Made by a program: the position numbers and the translations under genes. The notes beneath the pieces were generated by a model. It searched no databases, was not told the DNA's origin, and saw nothing but the letters and a program-made list of their open reading frames with translations. A stretch of DNA of 18,201 nucleotides. Source: Nitrospinae bacterium RIFCSPLOWO2_12_FULL_45_22 (GTDB lineage: Bacteria > 2-12-FULL-45-22). Positions 2,930 through 16,067 of this stretch are shown here, in pieces. Position 1 is the first letter of the stretch; each line of letters starts with the position of its first letter. Where the stretch lies: assembly GCA_001803565.1 (NCBI GenBank), contig MHDQ01000266.1, forward strand, positions 606-18,806, written 5' to 3'.

Positions 2930-2979
2930 TGACCGTTGTCAACAATTATAGAGATAACCAACGAGATTAGCTAGAGAAG

Positions 2980-3747
2980 ATGGAAACAGCAATAAATCCC
3001 TGGACTAAACTGACTCAAAAAGCCAAGCTCAGTCAGAACTTGAGAAATCAATTAATAGAAGAATATTCTCCTCTAATAAAGTATATTGCCCAGCGCATGA
3101 TGCGGAGACTACCCCGCCATATAGAACTGGATGAGCTGATCAACTCTGGTGTTTTAGGCTTAATGGATGCGATAGAGAAGTTTAATCCTTCCAGGAATAT
3201 TCAGTTTAAGACCTATGCCGAGGTAAGGATCAGAGGGGCCATTTTGGATGGCCTACGGGCTCAGGATTGGATACCGAGATCCCTCAGGCAAAAAGCTAAC
3301 AAGATGGCTTCTACTTATGCTCAAGTAGAACAGAAGCTCGGCCGGCCTGCCTCCGTGGAGGATATAGCGGACGAGCTGGAGGTGGAGGTAGGAGAAGTAG
3401 AAAATATCCTTACCCAACTGGAAAGCATACATTTAATAAAACTGGAGGAGATTATTACTGATCCTCAACCGGAAGCCAAAGAGTCCCTAAGTCACCGCCT
3501 GTTAGGCATTAGTGGGGAGGATTCTCTTTCTCTATTAAACCTGGCACAGGTCAAAAAGGCTATCGGCCAGGCAATAGACCAACTACCACCTAAAGAGAAG
3601 ATGGTTGTAACCTTATATTATTATGAAGAATTAACCATGAAAGAGATTGGTAAAGTGCTGAACATTACTCAATCCCGGGTATCCCAACTCCATACCCAGG
3701 CTATCTTAAGACTAAAAGGCAAATTAAAAAAATTTCTGGCAGAATAG
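2980..3747 (+). CDS. fliA: FliA, flagellar sigma factor (sigma-28/WhiG family)
   Basis: Alternative sigma factor that directs RNA polymerase to late flagellar and chemotaxis genes. At 255 residues it has the usual FliA/WhiG length. Region 2 covers LIKYIAQRMMRRLPRH, ELDELINSGVLGLMDAIEKF and FKTYAEVRIRGAILDGLR through DWIPRSLRQKA. Region 3 follows with LGRPASVEDIADELEV. Region 4 has LPPKEKMVVTLYYYEELTM and the helix-turn-helix KEIGKVLNITQSRVSQLHTQ. ATG 2980 is preceded only by a weak purine stretch (AGAGAAG), so translation may be modest or coupled to flhG, which ends 50 bases upstream. I see no FlgM-like anti-sigma gene next to it, although a small unidentified gene lies downstream. The flhF-flhG-fliA order is common in flagellated bacteria and supports the call. 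Confidence 0.95.
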   Translation: METAINPWTKLTQKAKLSQNLRNQLIEEYSPLIKYIAQRMMRRLPRHIELDELINSGVLGLMDAIEKFNPSRNIQFKTYAEVRIRGAILDGLRAQDWIPRSLRQKANKMASTYAQVEQKLGRPASVEDIADELEVEVGEVENILTQLESIHLIKLEEIITDPQPEAKESLSHRLLGISGEDSLSLLNLAQVKKAIGQAIDQLPPKEKMVVTLYYYEELTMKEIGKVLNITQSRVSQLHTQAILRLKGKLKKFLAE

Positions 3748-3757
3748 TTAGAGTAAG

Positions 3758-3876
3758 TTATCAGCCATCAGTCCATAGCTTTAAGCAAATTCGGTGTCCG
3801 TGTCCATCGGGCACGCTTCACGGTTAACAGAAAAACGGAGTTTCGCTGACCGCTGATTGCTGATAGCTGAATGCTG
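3758..3876. repeat. Palindromic intergenic element, GCTGA family
   Basis: Just after the fliA stop, the arm TTATCAGCCATCAG (3758-3771) is matched in inverse by CTGATTGCTGATAG (3853-3866) with 12 of 14 bases, followed by further GCTGAA words. Between the arms is a compact hairpin, CGTGTCC (3799-3805), loop ATC, GGGCACG (3809-3815). A related element lies between flgG and flgA. There is no convincing poly-T run for a rho-independent terminator, although such a structure could still slow polymerase or stabilise the fliA mRNA end. Confidence 0.75.
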
Positions 3877-3916
3877 AATTTTGTAATTGTTTAGCCAATC
3901 AAAGTCTCCGATCTTA

Positions 3917-4119
3917 TTTAGCCACAGAGGCACAGAGGACACAGAGTGTAGGGACGTAGCTGCTATGTCCCTACTAACTTTCAGCCTCGGAAAGTGTTAG
4001 CAAAGGATGTAGCGTGAAAGCTTGCTTTCATAAATGCGAGCAAGCCTTTGGCCTTCAAGGCCAAAGGCTTGCATGTTACATCTCATTTTCTCTGTGCCCT
4101 CTGTGTCTCCGTGGCTAAA
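3917..4119. repeat. Compound palindromic element, CACAGAG family, with three inner hairpins
   Basis: A 30-base arm at 3917-3946 (starting TTTAGCCACAGAGGCACAG) returns inverted at 4090-4119 (ending GTGGCTAAA) with three mismatches, so about 200 bases are bounded by terminal inverted repeats. Inside are a near-perfect palindrome at 3948-3974 (GTAGGGAC / GTCCCTAC), a small GAAAGC-TT-GCTTTC stem near 4017-4030, and a perfect 16-base inverted repeat at 4040-4055 / 4057-4072 (GCAAGCCTTTGGCCTT). No open reading frame of note lies inside, so it resembles a miniature non-autonomous repeat rather than an insertion sequence. Together with the preceding element it fills the non-coding stretch between fliA and the next gene. 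Confidence 0.8.
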
Positions 4120-4190
4120 CTGTTACCAATTTTAATGATTGACTCCTTAAGTTAAAAATGGTATAGGTAGAAGCCAAAAAAGGGGGGGTG

Positions 4191-4472
4191 ATGGTCTTGG
4201 ACAAAACCATAGATAAACCCCAGGGGTTATTACCGTGGTTAAACATAAAAGGAGTTTCTCAAGATGAAAAGTATTCCGGGGGGGAACATAAAAAGTTTGG
4301 TCAAGAAAAGAAAAAACCTCCCCCACAAAAAGAAAAAGTATCACTATCCCTAAGGGATGGTAAAGATAAGGAAGGAGAACCCGCGTATAGCAAAACCAGT
4401 ACCGATAAGAAGGGCAAAGAGGATAAGTCGCCTGCCGGCACCCAGGGTAAACAAATAGACATAACTATTTAA
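4191..4472 (+). CDS. Small lysine-rich protein of unknown function
   Basis: A 93-residue protein from ATG 4191; a GTG at 4188 would add one residue. I do not recognise the family. The first part (LDKTIDKPQGLLPWLNIKGV) looks partly ordered; the middle is highly charged, with many lysines, prolines and glycines and low complexity, suggesting disorder; the end, GKQIDITI, returns to a short hydrophobic strand-like segment. There is no signal peptide or membrane segment. The start is poorly supported: a run of seven G directly abuts it and no well-spaced Shine-Dalgarno is visible. A second seven-G run lies inside the frame (4278-4284). It sits between the sigma-28 gene and the sigma-54 activator, so a flagellar role is plausible. 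A FlgM-like anti-sigma role is conceivable but no FlgM helices are recognisable. It may also be a spurious frame. Confidence 0.5.
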   Translation: MVLDKTIDKPQGLLPWLNIKGVSQDEKYSGGEHKKFGQEKKKPPPQKEKVSLSLRDGKDKEGEPAYSKTSTDKKGKEDKSPAGTQGKQIDITI

Positions 4473-4605
4473 CTGCTACTAAAAACATATAAAAACATAA
4501 TATACTTTACTTTTGCACTTCTCCATGATACCGTGGTTAAAGTGTACGTCTCACCCGTCCTCTTATATACTTATATACCGGGCAAGATAGCCGGCATATA
4601 GGAAC

Positions 4606-4633
4606 TTTTGAAGAAAATCTGTGAAAGTATAAT
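4606..4633 (+). promoter_or_regulatory. Possible sigma-70-type promoter for the response regulator gene
   Basis: A perfect TATAAT at 4628-4633 lies 16 bases after a weak -35-like TTTTGA (4606-4611), putting a start site near 4640, upstream of the Shine-Dalgarno at 4656-4660. This favours ATG 4668 as the start of the next gene. The rest of the 195-base gap from 4473 is AT-rich with repeated TATA words, and I see no sigma-54 box, repeat or clear terminator in it. The -35 match is poor, so the call is tentative. Confidence 0.35.
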
Positions 4634-4667
4634 ATACAACTTCCCCACCTTTATTGGAGGGTTTGTT

Positions 4668-6035
4668 ATGGAAAACAAGAAAATCCTGGTGGCGGATGAT
4701 GATCGGACTAATGGTCGGTTGTTGGCAGAAGTCTTAGCGGGTGAAGGGTTTCAAACGGCTACTGCCTGGGATGGTGAACAGGCCCTGGGCATGCTGGAGA
4801 AAGAATTGTTTGATATTGTCTTAACAGACCTCAAAATGCCTAAGGTAAATGGTATTGAGGTACTGGAATATTTAACCCGCACTAATCCCACTGCTATTGG
4901 TATTGTTATTACTGGATACGGTACTATAAAATCTGCTATTGAAGCCATGCGTGCTGGGGCTTATGACTATATTACTAAACCAATACATCTCGACGAAGTA
5001 AAGCTAACTATAAAAAGGGCACTGGAACATCACTCCCTCATAAAAGAGAACATTACCTTGAAACAGCAGCTTAAGGGTAAGTATAAATTTGAAAATATCA
5101 TCGGTGATAGTGAGGCCATGCAGGAGGTCTTTAGCCTGGTTGAGAAAGTGGCGGATAGTGACATTACCGTACTGATCTATGGCGAGAGTGGCACCGGCAA
5201 AGAATTGATAGCCCGGGCTATCCATTATAATGGTCCCAGGTCAGATGGCCCCTGGATACCAGTGAATTGTGGCGCTATCCCCGAAGGGCTATTAGAGAGC
5301 GAGCTCTTTGGCTATGAGAAAGGGGCCTTTACCGGAGCAACCAAGACCCGCTTGGGACGCTTTGAATTGGCCCATCGAGGTACTATCTTCCTGGATGAGG
5401 TATCAGATATGAGTCCCGCTTTACAAGTTAAACTCCTGAGGGTTCTCCAGGACCAAAGTTTTGATCGAGTAGGCGGGGTGAAGACCATCAAAGTAGATGT
5501 GCGTATTGTTGCTGCTACCAACCGAGAGCTAGAAGAAGAGGTAGCCAAGGGTAGATTTCGGGAGGATCTATTCTATCGTCTCAATGTTATACCTGTGTTT
5601 CTACCACTCCTGCGGGAGCGTAAAAGTGATATACCTTTATTGATCCGGCATTTTTTGAGCCGACAAAACTCTAACAAGGAACGAAATATAATTGGCATCA
5701 CCCCTGAGGCTATGGAGCTCTTAATGAATTATTCCTGGCCAGGTAATATCAGGGAGCTAGAAAACCTGATAAATAGACTGTTAGTATTATATAGTGGCCA
5801 TATGGTAACGGCAAAAGATTTGCCAGAGAAATTTGTGAATGGCAAGGACACCTGTCCCACAATAACACATGCCTTTTCCCCTAATGGTATTTGTTTAAAG
5901 AGCGCAGTAAATGAATTCGAAAAACAGCTTATATTAAAGGCCCTGGAAAAGACAAAAGGGGTAAAAAAACGCGCTGCTAACCTCTTAGGCCTGAACCGAA
6001 CTACGCTGGTTCAGAAGATAAAAAAACTAGGTTAG
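4668..6035 (+). CDS. Sigma-54-dependent response regulator (FlgR/FlbD/FleR-like)
   Basis: NtrC-family transcription activator of 455 residues. The receiver domain has the acidic triad D10-D12, phospho-acceptor D54 (VLTDLKMP) and K104 (YDYITKP). The AAA+ domain has Walker A GESGTGKE (172-179), the sigma-54 contact loop GAFTGA (219-224), Walker B FLDE (D243-E244) and FYRLNV. A Fis-type helix-turn-helix closes the protein (KKRAANLLGLNRTTLVQKIK). All motifs needed for phosphorylation, ATP-driven activation of sigma-54 polymerase and DNA binding are intact. ATG 4668 is chosen because GGAGG at 4656-4660 sits seven bases before it; an in-frame ATG at 4608 adds 20 residues unlike a receiver domain and lacks a Shine-Dalgarno. 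A consensus sigma-54 promoter lies 143 bases past its stop, in front of flgB, so it probably activates the rod-hook operon. No partner histidine kinase is visible in the window. Confidence 0.93.
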   Translation: MENKKILVADDDRTNGRLLAEVLAGEGFQTATAWDGEQALGMLEKELFDIVLTDLKMPKVNGIEVLEYLTRTNPTAIGIVITGYGTIKSAIEAMRAGAYDYITKPIHLDEVKLTIKRALEHHSLIKENITLKQQLKGKYKFENIIGDSEAMQEVFSLVEKVADSDITVLIYGESGTGKELIARAIHYNGPRSDGPWIPVNCGAIPEGLLESELFGYEKGAFTGATKTRLGRFELAHRGTIFLDEVSDMSPALQVKLLRVLQDQSFDRVGGVKTIKVDVRIVAATNRELEEEVAKGRFREDLFYRLNVIPVFLPLLRERKSDIPLLIRHFLSRQNSNKERNIIGITPEAMELLMNYSWPGNIRELENLINRLLVLYSGHMVTAKDLPEKFVNGKDTCPTITHAFSPNGICLKSAVNEFEKQLILKALEKTKGVKKRAANLLGLNRTTLVQKIKKLG

Positions 6036-6177
6036 GGGCAGGGAAAAAAGCGGAAAAAATTGCCTACTTGAGAAGGATTAATATTTCTACTTTTGTCACT
6101 TTAATTACTTTTTCCTCCTTATAGAAGTTTCCTCCCATCCCTTTCAGTTAGTTAATCTCACATGAAAATTGCTGCCA

Positions 6178-6193
6178 TGGCACATTCTTTGCT
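6178..6193 (+). promoter_or_regulatory. Sigma-54 (-24/-12) promoter of the flgB operon
   Basis: The sequence TGGCACATTCTTTGCT fits the sigma-54 consensus TGGCAC-N5-TTGCW at every defined position, with GG at 6179-6180 and GC at 6191-6192 exactly ten bases apart. Transcription would start around 6204, giving a leader of about 45 bases before flgB. The gene immediately upstream encodes a sigma-54 activator with an intact GAFTGA loop. The rest of the 213-base gap (6036-6248) holds no gene; I see no clear terminator or activator-binding repeat in it. Confidence 0.85.
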
Positions 6194-6212
6194 CCCCCTA
6201 TCGTATAAAAAA

Positions 6213-6238
6213 TTTTAACCGCAAAGGACACAGAGGGA
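6213..6238 (+). repeat. Half of a CACAGAG-type repeat in the flgB leader
   Basis: TTTTAACCGCAAAGGACACA followed by GAGGGAG resembles one arm of the palindromic elements found elsewhere in this window (compare 3917-3946), but no inverted partner is present nearby. Its end provides the GGGAGG Shine-Dalgarno (6235-6240) of flgB, eight bases before the ATG. It is either a decayed element or a chance similarity. Confidence 0.5.
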
Positions 6239-6248
6239 GGCGGGTGGT

Positions 6249-6659
6249 ATGGCTTCTCCTATATTGTTTGATTCAACCATCAAAATTTTAGAAATAGCCA
6301 TAGATTTACGGGCTAAACGACACCAGCAGATCGGTACCAATATAGCTAACCTGGATACGCCAGGCTATAAACCTCAACCCCTGGGCTTTGAAGAGCAATT
6401 AAAGAGAATACCAGAATTATTGGAGACGGCTTCTTTAGGGGTAACTCAGAAAAGACATTTCCCAATCAATGAAGCTAATATCTCTTATACCACTGCCCAG
6501 GTGGCTTCTACTTCTACCTGGGAAGATGGTTCCGATTCTGTTAGCCTGGAGGAAGAAATGACCAAACTGGCAGAGAACAACCTCATGTATAATGCCCTGG
6601 CCAAAATCCTAAGAGGGAAGTTTGACAAGTTAAGGCTCGCTATTAGAGAAGGGAGGTAA
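6249..6659 (+). CDS. flgB: FlgB, proximal rod protein
   Basis: FlgB is a structural subunit of the proximal rod, exported by the flagellar type III system and assembled in the periplasm above the MS ring. The 136-residue protein has the expected size. The N-terminal rod signature includes RAKRHQQIGTNIANLDTPGY followed by KPQPLGFEEQL, and the C-terminus SLEEEMTKLAENNLMYNAL plus KILRGKFDKLRLAI is a typical FlgB ending. No signal peptide, as expected for this export route. It is the first gene after the sigma-54 promoter, and flgC begins six bases after its stop. Confidence 0.95.
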   Translation: MASPILFDSTIKILEIAIDLRAKRHQQIGTNIANLDTPGYKPQPLGFEEQLKRIPELLETASLGVTQKRHFPINEANISYTTAQVASTSTWEDGSDSVSLEEEMTKLAENNLMYNALAKILRGKFDKLRLAIREGR

Positions 6660-6664
6660 TCAAT

Positions 6665-7084
6665 TTGGATTTTTTAACCGCTATGGACATAAGTGCATCA
6701 GGGCTTACGGCCCAGCGCTTACGAATGGCAGTAATTGCCAATAATATGGCTAATATCCACTCCAGCCGTACTACTCAGGGTGGTCCCTATCAAAGAAAAC
6801 AGGTTATTTTTGCTGCGTTACCCATAACAGAAGCTACTGCAGCCAGCTTTGATCAAGCCCTCCAAGAGGTAAGGGTGGTTGGGGTAGTAGAGGATATGCG
6901 GGAACCTAAAAAGGTCTATGACCCAGGGCATCCTGATGCAGACCCTCAGGGAATTGTCCTTATGCCCAATATAAATCTCATAGAAGAGATGGTTGATCTG
7001 TTATTAGCTAGCCGGGCTTATGAAGCAAATGTCACTGTGATTAATGCTGCCAAAAGTATGGCCCAGAAAGCCCTAGAAATATAA
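6665..7084 (+). CDS. flgC: FlgC, proximal rod protein (TTG start)
   Basis: FlgC is a proximal rod subunit that stacks with FlgB and FlgF. The 139-residue protein begins MDFLTAMDISASGLTAQRL, as FlgC proteins do, has ANNMANIHSSRTTQGGPYQR, and ends with the rod/hook C-terminal helix (EEMVDLLLASRAYEANVTVI). The start is TTG at 6665: GGGAGG at 6651-6656, within the last codons of flgB, is eight bases before it, while the next ATG (6683) lacks a Shine-Dalgarno and would remove conserved residues. Tight packing with flgB and fliE indicates one operon. Confidence 0.95.
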   Translation: MDFLTAMDISASGLTAQRLRMAVIANNMANIHSSRTTQGGPYQRKQVIFAALPITEATAASFDQALQEVRVVGVVEDMREPKKVYDPGHPDADPQGIVLMPNINLIEEMVDLLLASRAYEANVTVINAAKSMAQKALEI

Positions 7085-7098
7085 CAACGGGAGGAACG

Positions 7099-7410
7099 AT
7101 GAGAGATTTAGAAATCCAGGGCCTTATTAAAGCCCCTATAAATCTACCTGGTTCAACAAAAGATACTAAAGAAAAAGGGGATGCAAAAGGGCCCTCATTT
7201 GGTGAGATATTAAAAAATTCTATCGAAGAGGTTAACCGACTACAGAAAGAGGCAGATACGGCTATCCAGGAACTGGCTACTGGTAAGGGCAAAGGTATCC
7301 ATGAGACTATGATTGCCCTGGAAAAGGCTGATACATCCTTCCAAATGATGATGCAGATAAGAAATAAGATAATAGAGGCCTACCAGGATATAATAAGAAT
7401 GCAAATCTAA
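7099..7410 (+). CDS. fliE: FliE, MS-ring/rod junction protein
   Basis: FliE joins the MS ring to the rod and is one of the first proteins exported by the flagellar system. The 103-residue protein has the normal length, with a variable N-terminus and the conserved C-terminal two thirds: FGEILKNSIEEVNRLQKEAD, ETMIALEKADTSFQMMMQIR and NKIIEAYQDIIRMQI at the end. A GGGAGG Shine-Dalgarno lies just upstream of ATG 7099, 14 bases after flgC. In many bacteria fliE is followed by fliFGHIJ; here fliK comes next. Confidence 0.95.
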   Translation: MRDLEIQGLIKAPINLPGSTKDTKEKGDAKGPSFGEILKNSIEEVNRLQKEADTAIQELATGKGKGIHETMIALEKADTSFQMMMQIRNKIIEAYQDIIRMQI

Positions 7411-7428
7411 TTTGGGTGATAAGTAAGA

Positions 7429-9075
7429 ATGAATCTTATAGCGCCATTCCTTAATCTTGAAGAGGGAATCTTAACGGGCGGTTCAAGAGGAGAGGGAGCG
7501 GATTTAAAATCTGTCCCTTCTTCTCTCACAGATAATTTCTCCAGTATCATAGCCGGGCTGTTGCCATCAATCCCTGGTATAGCTGCGGCCCCAGATATGG
7601 TTGCTGCTGTACCGGACATCAAATACCATTTGGTACCGGTTTATCAGGCTGAAGAAGGAGTAACTAAAGCTCCTGAGCGAGATACAGAAGGTACGGTTGA
7701 GGAAAACCATAGCGGGAAAAGATATCCTATAGACGCAGGAAAATTTATCTTCCCTTATACTATAGGTAGGGCTGACTTTAGTTGTCCCGTAGGGCAAACT
7801 AAAGATTCTCCTACGCAAGGGGAGGAAATAGGACCGGGAAACTCCGTTGCCCGGCTTGGGGCAAGCCCCATTGATTTAGCAGAAGATATGGGAATGAAGG
7901 CAGAGAAAAACTGGAATATTAGCAGATTTACTGGGGAAGGCTTAGAAGATTTATCACCCCACCCAGCAATAGAACAAAGCATATCTTTACCGCACCAGGA
8001 AAAACCCGTTATTGATTTGCCAAAAAGCTTACTAGCGAGCTTAGAGATAGACCTTTGTACCGCCGATTTTAATGAAGCAATCTCGCCCGTGGCCGGAAAT
8101 CCATTACCAGGACAGGGGATAAGCCCAGGTCTTACTGAATACCCTGAAGAAAGCCTATCAGGGGTAATAGGACGCAGATTTACGCAGATAAACACAGATA
8201 GCCTTACTGAATCTCTTGAAGAAGACCTATCAACCGACCTTCCAAAAACCCTGACCCACCAGACAAAGGGAGAGCAGATAAAAGAAGGGCTATCCTCAGC
8301 CGGATACGAAAAACCTGTTATTGATCTATCGGAGAACCCAGCGTTTAAAAAGGGGATAAAACCTGGCGCTACCGGTCCCCCGGAAGAAAGCCCTCCAGAC
8401 GCTCTTCCAAAAACCCTGACCCATCAGACAGAAAAAATATTGTCTTCAGGTAGATCGGATGATGGGGAGATTTATTATTTAAAAGACCTCTTGCCCGAGT
8501 ATAAGTTGAAAACCAGAAAGGAAACTCCAGGGGAAGGACTATTGTCAGCCAATACCGCTAAACCGCTCCGGGAAACCCCTGAAGTATTAGTTAATAATCT
8601 TTTTACCAAAGACCATCCTAACTCCATTGCCAATAGTTCGTATAACAACATACTGGAAGAAAAGGTCCTGGATCAGGTGGTGAAATATGCCCGGCTTAAT
8701 CTTAAAGAGGGCATCTCAGAGGTAGAAATTCATCTCAAGCCAGAATTATTGGGCTCACTGAGGATAAAAGTTGCCGTGGAAGGGCAAGAGGTTAAAGCCA
8801 GCTTCTTTGCCGATACTCCTTTAGTCAAAGAAATAATCGAGACCCATCTCCCTAGCCTTAAGCAGGCCTTTCTTGCTCAGAATCTAGATATCCAGAAGTT
8901 TTCAGTGTCTGTAGGGTATCATCCGGGCAGAGAAGATGTGGGCAACAATAACTTAAAAGACCTCCTTAAGGATAAAGAGGGTTATAAGAACAAAGAAATC
9001 AAGAAATCCCCGGAGCTTCACGAGGTTAGGAAGCCGGAGTACCATAGCTTAAACCTAATAGATTGTTTCGTATAA
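7429..9075 (+). CDS. fliK: FliK, hook-length control protein, with repeat-rich N-terminal region
   Basis: FliK is the secreted ruler that measures hook length and makes the export apparatus change substrate through FlhB. The 548-residue protein has the expected architecture: a long, poorly conserved, hydrophilic N-terminal region (about residues 1-400) and a conserved C-terminal Flg_hook domain containing EVEIHLKPELLGSLRIKVAV (LKPELLGSL near 436-444) and KQAFLAQNLDIQKFSVSVGY. The N-terminal region has duplicated segments: KPVIDL and LPKTLTHQT each occur twice, and a 72-base tandem duplication lies in the first module. Two stretches look derived from intergenic repeats (near 7486-7526 and 8172-8199), both in frame. 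Starts at ATG 7429, 18 bases after fliE, with only a weak Shine-Dalgarno. Because the linker works as a measuring tape, such insertions may set hook length. Confidence 0.9.
   Translation: MNLIAPFLNLEEGILTGGSRGEGADLKSVPSSLTDNFSSIIAGLLPSIPGIAAAPDMVAAVPDIKYHLVPVYQAEEGVTKAPERDTEGTVEENHSGKRYPIDAGKFIFPYTIGRADFSCPVGQTKDSPTQGEEIGPGNSVARLGASPIDLAEDMGMKAEKNWNISRFTGEGLEDLSPHPAIEQSISLPHQEKPVIDLPKSLLASLEIDLCTADFNEAISPVAGNPLPGQGISPGLTEYPEESLSGVIGRRFTQINTDSLTESLEEDLSTDLPKTLTHQTKGEQIKEGLSSAGYEKPVIDLSENPAFKKGIKPGATGPPEESPPDALPKTLTHQTEKILSSGRSDDGEIYYLKDLLPEYKLKTRKETPGEGLLSANTAKPLRETPEVLVNNLFTKDHPNSIANSSYNNILEEKVLDQVVKYARLNLKEGISEVEIHLKPELLGSLRIKVAVEGQEVKASFFADTPLVKEIIETHLPSLKQAFLAQNLDIQKFSVSVGYHPGREDVGNNNLKDLLKDKEGYKNKEIKKSPELHEVRKPEYHSLNLIDCFV
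7486..7526. repeat. Imperfect palindrome inside the fliK coding sequence
   Basis: A roughly 41-base stretch starting AGAGGAGAGGGAGCGGATTT and ending TCCCTTCTTCTCT is an imperfect palindrome centred on TTTAAAA, with most mismatches allowing G-U pairs in RNA. It encodes RGEGADLKSVPSSL of FliK (roughly residues 20-33). It looks like a repeat that entered the gene in frame. Confidence 0.5.
8002..8430 (+). repeat. Duplicated module in fliK, first copy expanded
   Basis: Module 1 (8002-8265) and module 2 (8311-8430) share their start (KPVIDL), a middle part (GI.PG.T..PEES) and their end (LPKTLTHQT, DNA matches at 8239-8265 and 8404-8430). Module 1 is longer, partly because it carries an extra segment between PEES and LPKTLTHQT. 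All units are multiples of three bases, so the frame is kept. Confidence 0.75.
8131..8232 (+). repeat. 72-base tandem duplication enclosing a repeat-like fragment in fliK
   Basis: A 30-base segment at 8131-8160 recurs at 8203-8232 with five mismatches. Between the copies is ACGCAGATTTACGCAGATAA and ACACAGAT (8172-8199), a word type resembling dispersed environmental repeats and related to the CACAGAG arms in this window. It translates as RRFTQINTD. Module 2 of fliK lacks this insert. Confidence 0.7.
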
Positions 9076-9089
9076 AAAGGAGGAGCACA

Positions 9090-9755
9090 ATGGCCTCAGT
9101 AGATGCTGTGTATAGAACTGAAAATTCTGATCCGGGCACTGTCAACAAAAATAAAGGTATGCTGGGCAAAGAGGATTTCTTACGCCTTTTGTTAGCTCAG
9201 CTCCAATACCAGGATCCATTAGAACCCTTAAAGAATGAGGAATTTGTTGCCCAGTTAGCTCAATTCAGCAGTCTGGAGCAACTCTTTGGCCTTAATAATA
9301 ACCTCTCGCAGCTTCAGAGGTATGCCGCATCTCTGAATAATTCCCAGGCCGTGGGCTTTATCGGGAAAGAGGTTAAGGCCCTGGGCGATTCCCTCTATAT
9401 AAACGCTGATGGTACCAGTAGTGGTGTCATGGATTATAAGCTGGCAGAAGATGCTAGAGCCACTACTATTGCTGTCTACAATTCCAGGGGGGAATTAGTA
9501 AAGACTATAGAACGTGGCTCCCAAAAGGCCGGGGAATATGAATATACCTGGGAGGGAAAGGATGATAAAGGCAAAACCGTGCCCGAGGGAGAATATACCT
9601 ATAAGGTGACGGCTACCAATAGCCAGGATGAAAAGATAAAAACTACTACCTATGTGACAGGAGCTGTTACCGGACTGGCTTTTGAGGATGGGATTAGTTA
9701 TTTGTTATTAGGAAAACGAAAAATAGCCCTGGGTAACGTGATCAAGGTTTCTTAG
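9090..9755 (+). CDS. flgD: FlgD, hook-cap (hook assembly scaffold) protein
   Basis: FlgD caps the growing hook and guides FlgE polymerisation; it is not kept in the finished flagellum. The N-terminal FlgD region has LGKEDFLRLLLAQLQYQDPL then EEFVAQLAQFSSLEQL. The middle carries SQAVGFIGKEVKALGD, and the C-terminal half is an Ig/FlgD-like fold (VYNSRGELVKTIERG, then YTWEGKDDKGKTVPEGEYTY). ATG 9090 (221 residues) is preferred: GGAGG at 9079-9083 precedes it by six bases, whereas an in-frame start at 9063 lies in the end of fliK and would add nine residues unlike FlgD. The last codons are duplicated 62 bases downstream in the flgD-flgE gap. Confidence 0.95.
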   Translation: MASVDAVYRTENSDPGTVNKNKGMLGKEDFLRLLLAQLQYQDPLEPLKNEEFVAQLAQFSSLEQLFGLNNNLSQLQRYAASLNNSQAVGFIGKEVKALGDSLYINADGTSSGVMDYKLAEDARATTIAVYNSRGELVKTIERGSQKAGEYEYTWEGKDDKGKTVPEGEYTYKVTATNSQDEKIKTTTYVTGAVTGLAFEDGISYLLLGKRKIALGNVIKVS

Positions 9756-9822
9756 GGTAGCTGCAGGGTCGTTCCCTGCCCTGGTCTTAGTCGAGTAACA
9801 TGATCAAGGTGTCTTACGATAG
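9733..9822 (+). repeat. Duplicated flgD 3' end in the flgD-flgE gap
   Basis: The 28 bases 9733-9760, spanning the last flgD codons and the stop, recur at 9795-9822 with four mismatches (both contain TGATCAAGGT). Between the copies is a GCAGGG / CCCTGC hairpin (9763-9768 / 9774-9779) with no following T run. The second copy has lost the stop codon and is untranslated. Confidence 0.75.
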
Positions 9823-9845
9823 TAAGGAGAGGAGGTTGTTGAGCT

Positions 9846-11057
9846 ATGTTAGGATCATTATTTACTGGTATTACGGGGATGAATGCCAATAGTCGGGTTA
9901 TGAGTGTTATTGGTGATAACATTGCTAATGCCAATACAACAGGCTATAAGAGTGGCCGGGCATCTTTTGAGGATATCCTGGGCCAGAGTATTGGCGGTAG
10001 ACGGGGCCAGATTGGTCGGGGTGTTACCCTCAGTAGTATCAATCGGGTCTTTAGTCAGGGCGCCTTATCTAGTACTGAACGGGTGACGGATATGGCTATT
10101 AATGGTAATGGTTTCTTTACGGTTAAGGAGGCCTCGGGGGTTTATTATACCCGGGCCGGAGAATTTACCCTGGATGAAAATGCCAAATTAGTCAATCCTA
10201 ATGGCCTGGTCGTACAGGGGTGGATGGCCGATAGCAGCGGCAATCTCACTACTACCAACGCTACTACGGATATTAACCTGGCCAATACCAACTCCTCACC
10301 TAAGGCCACTACTGCCTTCACTATTGGGGCAAACCTGGATGCCCAGGCCGCAAATGGTGATACTTACACTACCTCGATAACGGGTTATGACTCTAAAGGG
10401 AGTAAAGTAACCCTGACCCTGGATTTTACCTATGACAGTACCAATGATGAATGGGATTGGACCGCTTCGGCCTCTGATGGAGCTACGACAAACACCGGCA
10501 GCATTAGCTTTGATGCGAATGGTAACCTGAACTCTCCTGTCACTGACCCTACTATTTCTATAACTGGTCTCTCCTCTGGAGCTGCGGACCTATCCCTTAC
10601 CTGGGATTTAGTAGATGCTAGCGGGACCAGTAATGGTGATATTACGGGCTACGCCTCGGCTTCTACGACTACTTCTCAGTACCAGGATGGTTATAGCGCC
10701 GGCTCCCTCCAGAATATAACGGTGGATGAGAATGGTGTAGTTACTGGGCTATTTTCTAACGGTCAGATCAAGGACTTGGCCCAGGTAGCCCTGGCCGATT
10801 TTAACAATCCGGCTGGCCTGATCAGTATGGGTGGGAACCTATTTGCGGAGTCCCGTGCCTCCGGCTCCGCCATTATCGGCCCAGCCAGTACCGCGGGCCG
10901 GGGCAGTATTACATCAAATTCTCTGGAGCTGTCCAATACTGACCTGGCCAATGAGTTTGTTAATATGATTACTGCCCAGCGGGGGTTCCAGGCCAATGCC
11001 CGGGTTATTACCGCTAGCGATGAGTTATTGACTGAATTAGTCAACTTGAAGCGATAA
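9846..11057 (+). CDS. flgE: FlgE, hook protein
   Basis: FlgE is the structural subunit of the flexible hook. The 403-residue protein has the N-terminal rod/hook helix (LFTGITGMNANSRVMSVIGD, then NIANANTTGYKSGRASFEDI), the D1 signature FSQGALSSTERVTDMAINGN with GFFTVKE, a Thr/Ser/Asp-rich surface domain, and the C-terminal helix TDLANEFVNMITAQRGFQAN up to TELVNLKR. Length is ordinary for the family. GGAGG at 9831-9835 stands ten bases before ATG 9846. It follows its cap protein FlgD, the usual order. The gap to the next gene holds only AT-rich heptamer repeats. Confidence 0.95.
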   Translation: MLGSLFTGITGMNANSRVMSVIGDNIANANTTGYKSGRASFEDILGQSIGGRRGQIGRGVTLSSINRVFSQGALSSTERVTDMAINGNGFFTVKEASGVYYTRAGEFTLDENAKLVNPNGLVVQGWMADSSGNLTTTNATTDINLANTNSSPKATTAFTIGANLDAQAANGDTYTTSITGYDSKGSKVTLTLDFTYDSTNDEWDWTASASDGATTNTGSISFDANGNLNSPVTDPTISITGLSSGAADLSLTWDLVDASGTSNGDITGYASASTTTSQYQDGYSAGSLQNITVDENGVVTGLFSNGQIKDLAQVALADFNNPAGLISMGGNLFAESRASGSAIIGPASTAGRGSITSNSLELSNTDLANEFVNMITAQRGFQANARVITASDELLTELVNLKR

Positions 11058-11063
11058 AATTAC

Positions 11064-11098
11064 AACAATAAACAATAAACAATAACTAATAACCAATA
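11064..11098 (+). repeat. Short heptamer tandem array
   Basis: Five consecutive seven-base units: AACAATA three times, then ACTAATA and ACCAATA, filling most of the gap between flgE and the next gene. The array sits where a Shine-Dalgarno would be expected, and the next ATG (11109) has no clear one. Confidence 0.75.
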
Positions 11099-11108
11099 AC
11101 CAGATAGT

Positions 11109-12203
11109 ATGATAGTTTCGACCGACCCTATAAGCGGAAAAACTGTAACGATTCCAGGTACCAATGAACCGCGTGCCCTTAGAGGTCTGCTCTCACAATT
11201 GGTGATAGGTGAAGTGTTGGAGGGCAGGACTATAGAGCACCTGGGGGATCAGAGGATTCTGGTAAGCCTTAAAGATAAATGCGTAGTGGCTGAGACGCAG
11301 AGGGCTTTACTGCCCGGAGAGACCTTCATGGTACAGGTAAAGCAACTTAGCCCAAAGATAGTGCTAAGTCTCCTATCAGAGCCTATTCCCCTGGGCAATA
11401 AATTAGTATCTCAGATAAAGACCTTACTCACTTACCAGATAGCCCTGGGACGACTCATCGAGGATTTGCAGAAAAATATTGTATTAAACCAGCAATTAGA
11501 GTGGGATGGGAAAGAAAAGCTCCAGACTATCCTTTCTTCCCTGGTCTTTAACCAAAGTCAAGGAGACTATCTCAAGGCTTTTATCTCTGCCTCAGGACTG
11601 CTCTATGAGAACAAGATAATGAGATATTTATCCGGTGCCAGTAAAGAGTTGCCGCTGGACGACTTAAAAGGCCTATTGCTGCGGCTAGTTAGTGAGTTGA
11701 ATGTGGGGTCATCTAACAACTCATCGCTGGCAAATCTGGTCTCTTCCGGGGTAAAAAATATTGAGCTTCAGCAATATCTCAATCTACTGAGTAAAGAGAC
11801 CGGGGATTTTTATCTTCTCCAAATCCCGGTTGCGTTCTCTCAAACTATAGAGACTGTTCACCTTTATCTCTATGACCAGCGCGACAAGTCAGGACGAAAG
11901 GAGAAAAAAGATTGTTTTACTCTGGTTTTCTTACTAAGCCTGGAAGGTTTGGGGGAGGTAAAGATAGTGACCTTTATAGCGGATAAGAATATCCTTTGTC
12001 GAGTCACGGTAGCTCAGGAAAAGCAAGCGGAATTTATCCAGCGCCTCTTACCCCAACTAAAAGATCGGTTAGAAAACTTTGGGTATCAGGTAGAGGCCCT
12101 GAGCTGCTCGGCTGCTAAAGAAACCCCTGATCAGCTGCCATTACCTGGCTTAGACCTGGATGCTATTTTAGAAAGAATTAATTCCCTAAACTTATGGATA
12201 TAG
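11109..12203 (+). CDS. Second FliK-like protein (YlqG-type), probable hook-length/export-switch factor
   Basis: A 364-residue soluble protein with no signal peptide. The N-terminal part (GEVLEGRTIEHLGDQRILVS, then LLPGETFMVQVKQLSPKIVL) looks like the small beta domain found at the start of several FliK-like proteins. The middle is helical. The C-terminal segment (LEGLGEVKIVTFIADKNILC, then FIQRLLPQLKDRLENFGYQV) has the layout of the FliK C-terminal Flg_hook domain, without the LKPExLG signature. It is followed by a gene for a short protein like the FlhB C-terminus; this pair matches ylqG-ylqH of Bacillus subtilis. Role is inferred from fold and context: it may help regulate export switching. 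The ATG at 11109 has no visible Shine-Dalgarno. True FliK is encoded upstream at 7429, so this is a second member. Confidence 0.65.
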   Translation: MIVSTDPISGKTVTIPGTNEPRALRGLLSQLVIGEVLEGRTIEHLGDQRILVSLKDKCVVAETQRALLPGETFMVQVKQLSPKIVLSLLSEPIPLGNKLVSQIKTLLTYQIALGRLIEDLQKNIVLNQQLEWDGKEKLQTILSSLVFNQSQGDYLKAFISASGLLYENKIMRYLSGASKELPLDDLKGLLLRLVSELNVGSSNNSSLANLVSSGVKNIELQQYLNLLSKETGDFYLLQIPVAFSQTIETVHLYLYDQRDKSGRKEKKDCFTLVFLLSLEGLGEVKIVTFIADKNILCRVTVAQEKQAEFIQRLLPQLKDRLENFGYQVEALSCSAAKETPDQLPLPGLDLDAILERINSLNLWI

Positions 12204-12215
12204 CACTTGTAATCG

Positions 12216-12266
12216 TTCACCGCCGAGAGCGCAGAAAACACTTTTCTCTGTGTGCTCCGCGGTGAA
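12216..12266. repeat. Compact palindromic element, CACAGAG/CCGCGG family
   Basis: TTCACCGCCGAGAGCGCAGA (12216-12235) faces an inverted arm ending CTCTGTGTGCTCCGCGGTGAA (12246-12266) over a short spacer; the arms match imperfectly, with a two-base length difference. It occupies the gap between the FliK-like gene and the FlhB-like gene and ends a few bases before the Shine-Dalgarno of the latter. Confidence 0.75.
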
Positions 12267-12288
12267 TGGCTGTGGGAGTAATTATTCT

Positions 12289-12582
12289 ATGGGCAGGAAG
12301 AGCACCTTAAAAGAAGCAGTTGCTCTGAAATATTCTCCACCAAAAGACGCTGCCCCCAAGCTAATGGCTAAAGGCCGGGGTTTGGTAGCAGAAAAGATCA
12401 TAGAATTAGCCAGGAAACACGGTATCCCTATACAGGAAGACCCGGACTTAATAAAGATTCTTGCTCAATTAGATCTGGAGGAAGAAATACCACCTTCAGT
12501 CTATCAGGTAGTGGCAGAAATCTTAGCCTTTGTTTACTCTCTCAATGCCCAATGGCAAGAGAGGAATATTAGGGGAGGTTGA
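12289..12582 (+). CDS. FlhB C-terminus-like protein (YlqH/FlhX-type, EscU/YscU/HrcU family)
   Basis: A 97-residue protein equivalent to the part of the FlhB cytoplasmic domain after its self-cleavage site. The run AVALKYSPPKDAAPKLMAKG is the standard FlhB/YscU motif, followed by GLVAEKIIELARKHGIPIQE, PDLIKILAQLDLEEEIPPSV and YQVVAEILAFVYSL. The NPTH cleavage tetrapeptide is absent: the residues just before AVALKY read STLKE. No membrane segments. ATG 12289 is preferred, with GGGAG at 12273-12277; an upstream in-frame start at 12250 lies within the palindromic element. Known free-standing homologues can interact with or partly replace the FlhB C-terminal domain; here that is inference. It precedes flgF by four bases. 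Confidence 0.85.
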   Translation: MGRKSTLKEAVALKYSPPKDAAPKLMAKGRGLVAEKIIELARKHGIPIQEDPDLIKILAQLDLEEEIPPSVYQVVAEILAFVYSLNAQWQERNIRGG

Positions 12583-12586
12583 CAAA

Positions 12587-13330
12587 ATGGAGGGTATTTA
12601 TCCCGCTATCTCTGGTAGTCTACTCCAGGAAAAGCGATTAGAAGTTCTGGCTAATAACCTGGCTAATATCAATACCATAGGTTTTAAAGAAGACCGGTCG
12701 GTATTCGAAACCTATATCATGGGTAATGTCTCGTCCTACCAGCCTTTAGCGCCTACCAGGATTATTCCAGAGGAGGCTTACGCAGTATTTACTGGGATTA
12801 ATACCGTTTTTTCCCAGGGAGAATTACGCTATACCCGCAATCCTTTGGACCTGGCTATTGATGGGAACGGGTTCTTCGTTACAGAAACGCCCCAGGGAAA
12901 GGCATATACCCGCAAAGGGAACTTTACTATTAACAAGGAAGGTCTATTAGTTACGCAGGAGGGCTTATCGGTACTGGGTAGGGGAGGAACTATTACTATT
13001 CGGGGCAGCCAGGTAATTATTGATAATGAGGGAAACATCTTAGTGGATGATAAACGAGTGGATACTATATCTGTAGTGGATTTCCCTAAGCCTTATCCCT
13101 TACAGAAAATCGGCGATTCACTCTTTGTCCTTAATAATACGGAAATAGAAGAGATTACCCCTACGGGTATTACCATCCAGCAAGGCTACCTGGAGCTGTC
13201 CAATGTCCAGGCCACCAAGGCTATGGTAGAGATGATTGATATTTTACGAGCCTATGAGGCATATCAAAAGATTATCCAGTCATTTAATGATGAGGCATTA
13301 AAGACTATTAATGAAGTAGGTAAACCATAA
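12587..13330 (+). CDS. flgF: FlgF, proximal rod protein
   Basis: FlgF is a rod subunit of the flagellar basal body, related to FlgG and FlgE. From ATG 12587 the protein has 247 residues. The N-terminus reads EGIYPAISGSLLQEKRLEVL then ANNLANINTIGFKEDRSVFE. The central part has FSQGELRYTRNPLDLAIDGN and GFFVTETPQGKAYTRKGNF, and the C-terminus has [20 protein letters not shown] with LRAYEAYQKIIQSF. GGGGAGG at 12572-12578, eight bases upstream, decides this start over an in-frame ATG at 12530 inside the preceding gene. It is shorter and more divergent than the following FlgG, as is usual for FlgF in a flgF-flgG pair. Confidence 0.92.
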   Translation: MEGIYPAISGSLLQEKRLEVLANNLANINTIGFKEDRSVFETYIMGNVSSYQPLAPTRIIPEEAYAVFTGINTVFSQGELRYTRNPLDLAIDGNGFFVTETPQGKAYTRKGNFTINKEGLLVTQEGLSVLGRGGTITIRGSQVIIDNEGNILVDDKRVDTISVVDFPKPYPLQKIGDSLFVLNNTEIEEITPTGITIQQGYLELSNVQATKAMVEMIDILRAYEAYQKIIQSFNDEALKTINEVGKP

Positions 13331-13342
13331 GGAGGTGAGGTT

Positions 13343-14131
13343 ATGATTCGGGGACTATGGACTTCGGCCTCGGGTATGGAGGCACAGCAACTCAATATTG
13401 GTATTATTGCCAATAACCTGGCCAATGTTAATACCATAGGCTTTAAGAAGAGTCAGGCGGATTTTCAGGATCTACTCTATCAGACCCTTCGTACCCCAGG
13501 GGCTACCTCTGCCCAGGGCAATGAAATCCCTACTGGTATGCAATTGGGTCAAGGGGTCAGACCCGTAGCCATCCAGAAGATATTCTCGCAAGGCGATTAT
13601 CAACAGACTAAGAATGAGTTAGACGTGGCTATAGAAGGAGATGGGTTCTTTCAAATATTACAGCCCAATGGTGAGATAGCCTATACCCGCGCCGGCTCCT
13701 TCAAGCTGGATAGCCAGGCCCGGCTTGTTACCTCTGATGGCTACCCCCTGGACCCAGAGATCGCTATCCCACCAGATGCTACAGAGATCACAATTGGTAT
13801 AGATGGGACAATATCCATCATCCAGGCAGGGCAAAGCCAGGCCAGTGAGATAGGTGCTATTCAGTTAGCCAGGTTCCCTAACCCGGCTGGCTTGAATGCC
13901 ATCGGACGTAATCTCTTTCTACCTACGACGGCGTCTGGTACGGCGGAAACCGGCATAGCCGGTGAGAGCGGTGTCGGTACTATTGCCCAGGGTTATTTAG
14001 AATTGTCTAATGTCAGTGTCGTAGAAGAGATGGTAAATATGATCGTTGCCCAGAGGGCCTATGAAGTCAATACTAAAGCTATCCAGACCGCAGATGATAT
14101 GCTCCAGTATGCCAACAATATTAAGCGGTAA
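13343..14131 (+). CDS. flgG: FlgG, distal rod protein
   Basis: FlgG makes the distal rod that passes through the P and L rings. The 262-residue protein has the standard length and sequence: [20 protein letters not shown] and [20 protein letters not shown] at the start, then the FlgG-specific [20 protein letters not shown] with [13 protein letters not shown], and the C-terminal [20 protein letters not shown] plus [15 protein letters not shown]. An AAGGAGGTG Shine-Dalgarno overlaps the flgF stop, six bases before ATG 13343. It ends before a 174-base gap with a nested palindrome. Confidence 0.97.
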
Positions 14132-14144
14132 GATTAAGATAAGT

Positions 14145-14276
14145 ATTCAGCCATCAGCAAGACTTACCGTAAGGTGTCAGGGGTAAGGCGTAAGGAGAAA
14201 TTTTTCTCACCCCTTACCCTCTCACTCCTTACGCCTCACGATCATTTTAACTGAAAGCTGAAGGCTGATAGCTGAA
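14145..14276. repeat. Nested palindromic element, GCTGA family, between flgG and flgA
   Basis: The outer arm ATTCAGCCATCAGC (14145-14158) is answered by GCTGATAGCTGAA (14264-14276) with one mismatch over 13 bases. Inside, GTAAGGCGTAAGGAG (14183-14197) has its 12-base inverse CTCCTTACGCCT at 14225-14236, and GGAGAAA / TTTCTC forms a further stem at the centre. The outer arms match those of the element after fliA (3758-3876). It ends a few bases before the flgA Shine-Dalgarno. Confidence 0.8.
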
Positions 14277-14305
14277 GGCTTACAAATAAAGGAGGCAGGA
14301 ATAAA

Positions 14306-15073
14306 TTGACGAGAAGCTGGGTTTTTCTATTGTTAGGTTTGTTTTCTATCACCCTACCTGGTTCTATTTGTCTGGCTGATAACCGGGTAGCGGTTCGACC
14401 CCAGACCACCAGCGAACAGTCCTACCAAAGGGTTACAGAAAAAGAGATACAGGAAATAGTGAGAGAGTCTATAACAGATAATATGCCGGGAGAGTTAGGC
14501 CAGATTAAGATAAAGGACATTAAGATCTACCCGGCTAAAGAGGTGGTTTTGTCCCCGGGAAAGCTATCCTACCAGGTTTTCGCCCAGAGGGGGAGCAACT
14601 TTCTGGGCCCTACCTATTTTGATATCCTGTTTAACATTGATGACCGTTTGGAGAAGAAGGTTAGGGCTATGGCTTACCTGGAGGCAATAGAAAAAGTTGT
14701 GGTTACCCGAAAACCACTGGGCCGCCACCAGCTAATTACCCCGAACGATATCATTAGTAAAGAAATGAACTTGGCCAAACTTCCTTCAAACGTCATCCTT
14801 GACCCCAGTCAGGTTATAGGAAAAAGGACTAAGGCTATTGTTGATCCCTATACACCATTGACAGCAGCCATTATAGAGCTGCCACCATTGGTAAAAAGAC
14901 GAAAATTAGTAAAGATTGTGGCAGAGACTGAAAATCTTAGGGTAACAACTTTGGGCGAAGCTCGGCAGGATGGTCGGGAAGGGGAGGTCATAAAAGTGCT
15001 TAATACTTCCTCGCAAAAGGAGATCTATGGCCGGGTGATAGATGCCAATACCATCAAAATAGAACTTTATTAA
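14306..15073 (+). CDS. flgA: FlgA, P-ring assembly chaperone (TTG start)
   Basis: FlgA is a periplasmic chaperone for P-ring assembly by FlgI. The 255-residue protein starts at TTG 14306; AAAGGAGG at 14288-14295 lies ten bases before it and no ATG gives the signal peptide. The N-terminus (MTRSWVFLLLGLFSITLPGS, then ICLADN) is a clear Sec signal peptide with probable cleavage after residue 24. The C-terminal half is the SAF-type FlgA domain: VVTRKPLGRHQLITPNDII, LDPSQVIGKRTKAIVDPYTP and VAETENLRVTTLGEARQDGR then GEVIKVLNTSSQKEIYGRVI, a standard FlgA ending. It is followed by flgH and flgI, whose products need it. Confidence 0.94.
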   Translation: MTRSWVFLLLGLFSITLPGSICLADNRVAVRPQTTSEQSYQRVTEKEIQEIVRESITDNMPGELGQIKIKDIKIYPAKEVVLSPGKLSYQVFAQRGSNFLGPTYFDILFNIDDRLEKKVRAMAYLEAIEKVVVTRKPLGRHQLITPNDIISKEMNLAKLPSNVILDPSQVIGKRTKAIVDPYTPLTAAIIELPPLVKRRKLVKIVAETENLRVTTLGEARQDGREGEVIKVLNTSSQKEIYGRVIDANTIKIELY

Positions 15074-15098
15074 GTTTTTTAATAATTCATGTATAACT

Positions 15099-15234
15099 GC
15101 AGACGCCGAGGCGCGGAGAATAAAGTTGATGCCGTGTCCGTTAAGAGAGTTACCTTTTCTTCCCACGGACACGAATCACAGATACGGATCACGAAAGTAT
15201 GTTTTCTCTGCGTCTCTGTGCCTCTGCGGTGAAA
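15099..15234. repeat. Nested palindromic element, CACAGAG family, between flgA and flgH
   Basis: The left arm near 15099-15122 (GCAGACGCCGAGGCGCGGAG) is answered loosely by the right arm near 15203-15234 (TTCTCTGCGTCTCTGTGCCT, then CTGCGGTGAAA). Inside, CGTGTCCGT (15133-15141) and ACGGACACG (15165-15173) are a perfect nine-base inverted repeat, and CACGAATCACAGATACGG looks like another dispersed-repeat word. The element fills most of the 190-base gap and ends shortly before the flgH Shine-Dalgarno. Confidence 0.7.
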
Positions 15235-15263
15235 GATTGTGTTAAATGAGAGAGGATATTCTT

Positions 15264-15977
15264 ATGAAGAAATTGAGTCGACTGATCTCAGGGTGCTGGA
15301 TTATTATCTTCATGCTCTGCATCGGATGCGCCACTACCCGCAAACAAGTTGATACTGAAGAGAGCTATGGCAGGGTCACTGCGGGACAGCCAACCCAGAA
15401 AACACTCCCTCAGACCGAAGGATCTCTATGGCCCGGTGAGAACCAGTTCAATACCATGTTTATGGATAGTAAGGCCCGCCGGGTAGGTGATATTGTTACT
15501 ATCCGGGTGGTAGAGGTAGCGGAGGCATCCAAAGAAGCTACTACTTCCACCGGCCGTAATTCCACCATTGATGTAGGGATAGATAGTATCTTTGGTATAG
15601 AAAAAAATATTGCCACTATAAATAAGGGCATTGACCCGTCCAAATTAATAGCAACCCGAGCCAGTAGCGGTTTTGAGGGTACGGGTGCTACTACCCGGAA
15701 AGGGAGCCTCACTACTTCTATCAGCGCTATTGTCAAAGAGACACTTCCTAATGGGAATCTAATTATAGAAGGCAGACGAAAACTTGTGGTAAACAATGAG
15801 ACCCAAATCCTTATCCTGCAAGGCATGGTCAGGCCAGAAGACATATCACCGGCTAATGTAGTATTATCCACGGCCATTGCTGATGCTAAAATAGTCTATA
15901 CCGGCAGAGGTATTATCGCCGATAAGCAGAGGCCGGGTTGGTTTATTCAGATTTTAGACCTGATTTGGCCTTTCTAA
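15264..15977 (+). CDS. flgH: FlgH, L-ring lipoprotein
   Basis: FlgH forms the outer-membrane L ring around the rod, so its presence shows a diderm envelope. From ATG 15264 (237 residues) the N-terminus MKKLSRLISGCWIIIFMLCI plus GC is a lipoprotein signal with probable lipidated cysteine at residue 22; the -3 position is cysteine rather than the usual leucine, with leucine one place further up. GAGAGG at 15249-15254 supports this start over an in-frame ATG at 15246. Family stretches are SLWPGENQFNTMFMDSKARR with VGDIVTIRVVE, NLIIEGRRKLVVNNETQ, RPEDISPANVVLSTAIADAK and the classical ending GRGIIADKQRPGWFIQILDL-IWPF. Confidence 0.95.
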   Translation: MKKLSRLISGCWIIIFMLCIGCATTRKQVDTEESYGRVTAGQPTQKTLPQTEGSLWPGENQFNTMFMDSKARRVGDIVTIRVVEVAEASKEATTSTGRNSTIDVGIDSIFGIEKNIATINKGIDPSKLIATRASSGFEGTGATTRKGSLTTSISAIVKETLPNGNLIIEGRRKLVVNNETQILILQGMVRPEDISPANVVLSTAIADAKIVYTGRGIIADKQRPGWFIQILDLIWPF

Positions 15978-15991
15978 TGAAACGGTGGGAA

Positions 15992-16067
15992 CACGAATTA
16001 CACAAATATGCGAATAGCACGACTGAGAAGGGCCATAAAAGCTATTGGTGTTATTCGGCCATTCGTG
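15992..16067. repeat. Palindromic element, CACGAAT family, between flgH and flgI
   Basis: CACGAAT (15992-15998) pairs with ATTCGTG (16061-16067), and CGAATAGCAC (16011-16020) pairs with GTGTTATTCG (16048-16057) at nine of ten positions, giving a nested imperfect hairpin in the 131-base gap. The words resemble the CACGAATCACAG stretch in the flgA-flgH element. Confidence 0.7.

Follow-up and report, generated by a model that had tools for sequence, protein, structure and literature searches.

The stretch of DNA analysed here, the window (18.2 kb; G000:C266:606-18806), comes from the 3.67-Mb, 321-contig genome of Nitrospinae bacterium RIFCSPLOWO2_12_FULL_45_22 and carries a flagellar gene cluster. 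The cluster comprises the flhA C-terminus, flhF, flhG, fliA, an NtrC-type regulator gene, flgB, flgC, fliE, flgD and flgE, together with a FliK-like gene, an FlhB C-terminal paralogue, flgF, flgG, flgA, flgH and flgI (flhF, flhG, flgB-flgE and fliE are putative names, assigned from gene order and the look of the sequences). An earlier note on this DNA had reported palindromic elements made of short words at seven sites in the cluster. Inverted repeats were confirmed at 3758-3876, 3917-4119, 12216-12266, 14145-14276 and 15099-15234, and as RNA these elements fold better than dinucleotide shuffles (z -2.8 to -9.7). The one claimed at 15992-16067 is a poor hairpin (z -1.6, with 13 of 200 shuffles doing equally well), and the supposed half element at 6213-6238 is one word array that forms no hairpin (z -0.7). 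No match was found in the window to Rfam up to an E value of 0.1. The data presented below indicate that the junction elements very probably belong to a group of non-autonomous miniature inverted-repeat transposable elements (MITEs) scattered throughout the genome, with IS66-family ends and 8-bp target duplications and putatively moved in trans.

Searching the whole genome with the repeat arms returned 89 matches to GCTGATNGCTGANNGCTGA versus none to the reversed pattern, and 80 matches to CTCTGTGYCTCYGYGGT versus 19; the arms were neither confined to these junctions nor as scarce as chance would have it, the two outcomes that the earlier note had named as evidence against mobile repeats. A sample of 749 kb in 60 contigs held 107 inverted repeats in non-coding DNA versus 29 in coding DNA, the non-coding part making up 13.7% of the sample; 40 of the 60 contigs had been picked for holding matches, which biases densities upward and leaves the duplication test and its controls unaffected. 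The junction inverted repeats are therefore real, beyond chance and not confined to the flagellar operon. Aligning the copies revealed a common end, GTAAC[ACT]GTT[CT]A[GC] or GTAAGCGTTCAG, outside of which the sequences are unrelated (the end forms are also written GTAACNGTTYA[GC]C or GTAAGCGTTCAGC, the end of the mini-element GTAACCGTTCA and the short MITE end GTAACCGTTCAGCCACC). This end motif occurs 262 times genome-wide versus 37 for the reversed control. Taking two inverted GTAA[CG]NGTTYA motifs 40-400 bp apart as an end pair, we found 41 pairs in the sample, 15 of which are flanked by perfect 8-bp duplications (binomial tail 8e-62) and 21 by flanks matching at 6 of 8 positions or more (7e-39), whereas control flanks shifted by 10-30 bp matched at 5 of 8 positions at most. 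Flanking duplications of this kind are what transposition through a staggered cut of 8 bp leaves behind. The verified copies measure 112-341 bp and are nearly all intergenic, and the perfect target sites are 70% A+T. Short, non-coding, bounded by terminal inverted repeats, flanked by a duplication of constant length and dispersed in many copies, these elements are MITEs, and the proposal that dispersed miniature mobile elements are tolerated between genes holds genome-wide, as does the expectation that alignment of copies would disclose true ends (the common GTAA end) and target-site duplications (8 bp).

The elements had also been thought to end mostly a few bases before the Shine-Dalgarno sequence of the next gene. 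This is roughly so for some copies in the window but not genome-wide: among 18 copies between same-strand genes, the upstream stop and the downstream start lie at similar, widely varying distances, and the orientation of the genes around copies (18 of 21 same-strand) equals the background (474 of 577). Across the genome, copies show no preference for start codons. The heptamer MITE end pattern was absent from the viral contigs searched.

Elements of the IS66 family typically have GTAA ends and duplicate 8 bp of target, and the genome contains a single detectable IS66-family transposase (PF03050, 1.7e-18; zf-IS66, 9e-11; NF033517, 1.6e-47); truncation of its gene keeps the NF033517 score under the curated cut-off. 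The start of the gene lies 133 bp inward of an end, GTAACCGTTCACCC, which shares 14 identical bp with MITE ends; MITEs and an autonomous-type element in the same genome have their ends in common, one IS66 end being visible. Complete IS66 copies in the genomes G048 and G233 (transposases 32-39% identical), delimited by comparing each genome's own copies, end in GTAACTATTCAG and GTAAGCGTTCAG (GTAAC/GTAAG) and are flanked by the 8-bp duplications AAGTAAAC, GAATCATG, GCTCTTCG and CTAGAACC, and ISDge4, an active IS66 element of the ISBst12 group, combines the end GTAACTGCTCAGCA with an 8-bp repeat (PMC12898284). Since IS66 relatives have both GTAAC and GTAAG ends, the two MITE end variants match two IS66 end variants; the MITE ends and the duplication length equal those of the complete copies and of ISDge4. 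Autonomous elements, sought in the 749-kb sample as end pairs 400-6000 bp apart with duplications, were not found, a result that fits fragmented assembly of IS copies. At L127:13469-13477 (G000:C275) the IS66 transposase and the end of an HD-GYP-like gene are joined in frame by a run of N, and the resulting 562-aa chimera is probably a scaffolding artefact. Directly after it, between two signalling genes, lies a MITE (L127:13986-14185) with a perfect AAGAAAGA duplication.

To locate ends in the window we used a weight matrix built from the ends of duplicated copies, with the window contig excluded, and derived expectations from shuffled windows. The five best matches, 4126(-), 3883(+), 12209(+), 14283(-) and 14139(+), all fall at elements of the earlier note, and none of the top four would be expected even once in shuffled windows. 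The true ends of these elements lie further out than reported there, at 3753-3878, 3883-4126, 12209-~12270 and 14139-14283. The element at 3883..4126 has both terminal repeats, GTAATTGTTTAGCCA on the left (3883..3897, +; 17.6 bits, 0 expected) and GTAACAGTTTAGCCA on the right (4112..4126, -; 21.2 bits, the best of the window, 0 expected), and encloses CACAGAG arms and two inner hairpins (GTAGGGACGTAGC.., GCAAGCCTTTGGCC..); its fold z is -9.7 and its flanks, TGAATTTT/CAATTTTA, agree at only 4 of 8 positions. The second two-ended copy, a GCTGA-heptamer MITE with an inner GTAAGGA hairpin at 14139..14283, ends in ATAAGTATTCAGCC and GTAAGCCTTCAGC (12.6 and 16.0 bits) and has a 6/8 duplication, AGATTAAG/AAATAAAG, the chance of which is 0.4% per site (fold z -5.4). 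A short CGCAGAG/CTCTGTG hairpin at 12209..12270 (+; z -5.7) retains an intact left terminal repeat, GTAATCGTTCACCGC (16.3 bits, 0 expected), and a decayed right end. The remaining copy, at 3753..3878 (+), is a decayed candidate GCTGA-heptamer MITE: its left end GTAAGTTATCAGCC (8.9 bits, 2.6 expected in shuffled windows) is weak alone, its right end is degenerate and its flanks match at 3 of 8 positions, leaving no target duplication, while its heptamer arms resemble those of end-bearing copies elsewhere in the genome (fold z -2.8). The window copies are mostly decayed, and the description of the class as active or recently active, which suits the genome with its 15 perfect duplications, is not shown for the flagellar operon, where the best flanks agree at 6/8 and 4/8.

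The other sites comprise a hairpin with CGCAGAG arms that encloses a CACGAAT/GTGTCCGT inner hairpin (15099..15234; z -5.4), the degenerate CACGAAT-word inverted repeat (15992..16067) and the lone word array TTTTAACCGCAAAGGACACAGAG, a fragment (6213..6238, +); these have only internal words in common with end-bearing copies. Gap lengths were compared with relatives: the flgA-flgH gap measures 172 bp, whereas none of 19 relatives exceeds 110 bp, and at 107 bp the flgH-flgI gap is longer than in 23 of 25 relatives (median 14 bp). These long gaps suit insertions without identifying them. The flgG-flgA gap (174 bp), also considered as insertion evidence, was dropped as not unusual among relatives. 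The hairpin element at 12209-12270 lies at the start of a gene (12250-12582) for a stand-alone FlhB C-terminal-domain protein, which covers only positions 262-335 of the PF01312 profile and is located between the FliK-like gene and flgF.

In the elements examined, the arms consist of short words of 7, 8 or ~10 bp iterated in tandem, the two arms being inverted, and many elements are concentric, with one or two hairpins at the centre, a word array around them and the ends outermost. Periodicity is clearest in the GTAAG class (period 7; z 18.8 at lag 7 and 14.5 at lag 14) and weaker, near 8 and 10, in other element classes. The words (GCTGAnn, CACAGAGn, CACAAAGn, CACCAAGn, GGTTATTA, GTAAGGA, ACAGGATTT and others) are more numerous than the at least three families of the earlier note; taken as families of elements they mislead, as many types often occur within one terminal-repeat class and are mainly the interiors of elements with common IS66-type ends. 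An IS66-type end lies within 45 bp of 35 of 50 GCTGA arms (control, 2). In a survey of 290 sampled genomes, CACAGAG words were found in 32 (near-zero controls) and TCAGC heptamer words in 42 (few in controls), and the presence of IS66 had no clear correlation with the arrays (6/42 heptamer genomes, 7/32 CACAGAG genomes, background ~10%). One of these, the unrelated genome G289, has a heptamer MITE with the same GTAAGCGTTCAGC ends and the perfect 8-bp duplications TCGCGCCG and AAGGATGA, and hence the heptamer class is common to distant genomes. The Nitrospinae genome also harbours a second class of miniature elements, with ends around AAAGTAGTTAACANTTT and outer GGCATCCTTCA..., which likewise encloses CACAGAG words (copies at L066:3594-3756, L091:6157-6319, L102:3067-3284, L105:16233-16437, L107:3467-3527 and L120:11544-11752).

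Several observations weigh against assigning the junction elements to IS66-type MITEs. Only 9 of 56 CACAGAG-type arms have an end nearby (control, 0), and the weight-matrix scan detected no end at three of the seven sites (15099-15234, 15992-16067 and 6213-6238). In G289 no IS66 was detected despite its heptamer MITE, and the lone IS66 copy of the Nitrospinae genome is cut at a scaffold gap, so that its right end and duplication are not visible. FlgI relatives in named genomes belong to Deltaproteobacteria/Thermodesulfobacteriota, Nitrospirae and others and reach no more than 48-63% identity; no close relative is therefore at hand for an empty-site comparison. Finally, the CACAGAG palindromes of G203 stand alone with sharp ends, and neither an end motif nor a duplication was found there; duplications were also sought at the free-standing CACAGAG palindromes of G230, and none was found. 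Together with the 9 of 56 arms, the free palindromes of these two genomes indicate that IS66 ends do not explain word hairpins everywhere.

These palindromes, the occurrence of the words in 32 and 42 of the 290 genomes, and the second kind of end (CAAAAGTAGTTAACANTTT) around CACAGAG words would also agree with another explanation, which we hold to be a serious though lesser possibility: that word hairpins (CACAGAG, TCAGCnn and others) are elements in their own right, akin to repetitive extragenic palindromic (REP) sequences, which are spread across phyla and make no target duplications, some having been captured between IS66 ends or enclosed by MITE insertion, and that the end-less copies of the window are of this kind. 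Such elements, however, would leave the target duplications unexplained, and the heptamer elements are tied tightly to IS66-type ends by the 35 of 50 arms and by the same combination, with duplications, in G289. A broader idea, which we regard as rather doubtful, is that iterated-word hairpins are modular parasitic DNA that crosses phyla inside various transposon ends (IS66-type, GTAGTTAAC type, or none), the 7-8-bp words being transposase-binding arrays or self-renewing hairpin units whose variants are uniform within and different between elements.

Mobilisation of REP palindromes, or of the bacterial interspersed mosaic elements (BIMEs) that contain them, by REP-associated tyrosine (RAYT, Y1) transposases was also considered and rejected as very unlikely, the co-occurrence being statistical, the genes not adjacent and target duplications present. 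Y1_Tnp is found in 38 of 42 heptamer genomes versus 131 of 248 others and in 29 of 32 CACAGAG genomes versus 140 of 258 others (Fisher), and the Nitrospinae genome itself has five matches, but this co-occurrence may reflect general repeat load and is not specific on present evidence. None of the Nitrospinae Y1 loci adjoins word arrays, and only one of 15 Y1 loci in word-bearing genomes has a heptamer pair nearby, ~1.3 kb away. Nor are GTAA ends and target duplications, of 8 bp here, features of REPs moved by RAYTs, and G203 (L185, L215, L219 and others), a complete genome, has ~100 CACAGAG palindrome-arm matches and no Y1 transposase match. Y1 transposases occur in 24 of 24 genomes with heptamer matches on both strands, their genes not adjacent to the arrays. 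Elsewhere, Y1 genes are flanked on both sides by GGGGAC..GTCCCC-type palindromes (L253 in G088, ~2952-3793; L255 in G034, ~2698-3506) resembling the TIRYT group with its GGGGWSAS repeats (PMC3733652). Least credible, and largely refuted as the primary explanation, are conserved regulatory structures local to the flagellar operon (attenuators, processing sites or regulator-binding arrays), for which the stable predicted RNA folds and the reading of paired tandem-word sites as IHF/HU sites in Geobacter metallireducens (PMC2700814) could be cited, but the same arms recur with target duplications at unrelated loci genome-wide, Rfam gave no match, and most relatives have only short flgA-flgH and flgH-flgI gaps, with no conserved element there.

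Returning to IS66-type MITEs, we infer how they move in trans, where the end-less copies come from and what they might do to the operon mRNA as follows. The ends of the ~110-340-bp elements would be recognised in trans by an IS66-family transposase of the ISBst12-like type with a single transposase gene, and insertion into A+T-rich intergenic DNA would duplicate 8 bp of target. Insertions would persist mostly between genes, where they are harmless, operon junctions being such places; ends and duplication would then decay until the hairpin alone stays visible. The sites at 15099-15234, 15992-16067 and 6213-6238 may be end-less remnants of this sort, or word-hairpin relatives that never had such ends. 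Within a polycistronic mRNA, the predicted strong hairpins could cause pausing, shield the message or open it to RNase III, an effect of hairpins reported for Correia elements in a review (PMC10969869); judged from predicted folding, a role in mRNA processing is plausible.

Several lineages have been reported to carry inverted arrays of short iterated words, which were taken for regulator sites or described as repeats without a mechanism of spread. For at least one word-array class, the present analysis supplies exact ends, an 8-bp target duplication and a matching transposase family, and two only distantly related genomes contain that class. The origin of word arrays thereby becomes testable and a route to their annotation is given, together with a warning against reading hairpins at operon junctions as regulatory signals.

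Our search of the open-access literature found no description of IS66-derived MITEs with iterated-word interiors, which is not proof of absence, and a literal search of papers for the word sequences gave no relevant match. REP/RAYT and TIRYT repeats are likewise dispersed intergenic palindromes, but they have tetranucleotide tags, Y1 transposases and no target duplications (PMC3733652), and adjacency to a RAYT gene was not found here. The TAACTGA heptamers of Beggiatoaceae, cyanobacteria and Bacteroidetes, which have no known mechanism of spread (PMC4679880), are also an iterated 7-bp word, intergenic and scattered over distant lineages; unlike the arrays described here they are almost all direct, consist of another word and have no ends described. 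A closer likeness is offered by the multicopy paired tandem octa- and heptanucleotide 'global regulator binding sites' of G. metallireducens, interpreted as IHF/HU sites (PMC2700814): these too are short tandem words (GTTGCTYN, TCTCCGTS, MTYCTGA) in opposite-strand pairs with variable spacing and in many copies, although the words differ and the available text states neither ends nor duplications, the likeness being one of description. Prokaryotic MITEs are known from operons, as with Chunjie of Geobacter uraniireducens, which is operon-inserted according to a review (PMC10969869). Like Chunjie and QMITE2 of Coxiella, the elements described here are small, non-coding and mostly intergenic, have terminal and direct repeats and strong hairpins, and yield truncated copies that look like REPs; they differ in their IS66-type ends and in the several word-array interiors within one end class, Chunjie being compared as that review describes it. 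With ISBst12-group IS66 elements, exemplified by ISDge4 (PMC12898284), they share the end GTAAC..TCAGC, the 8-bp duplication and a transposase of the same family in the genome, and they differ from them in measuring only 110-340 bp, in carrying no transposase and in having hairpin interiors built of iterated words.

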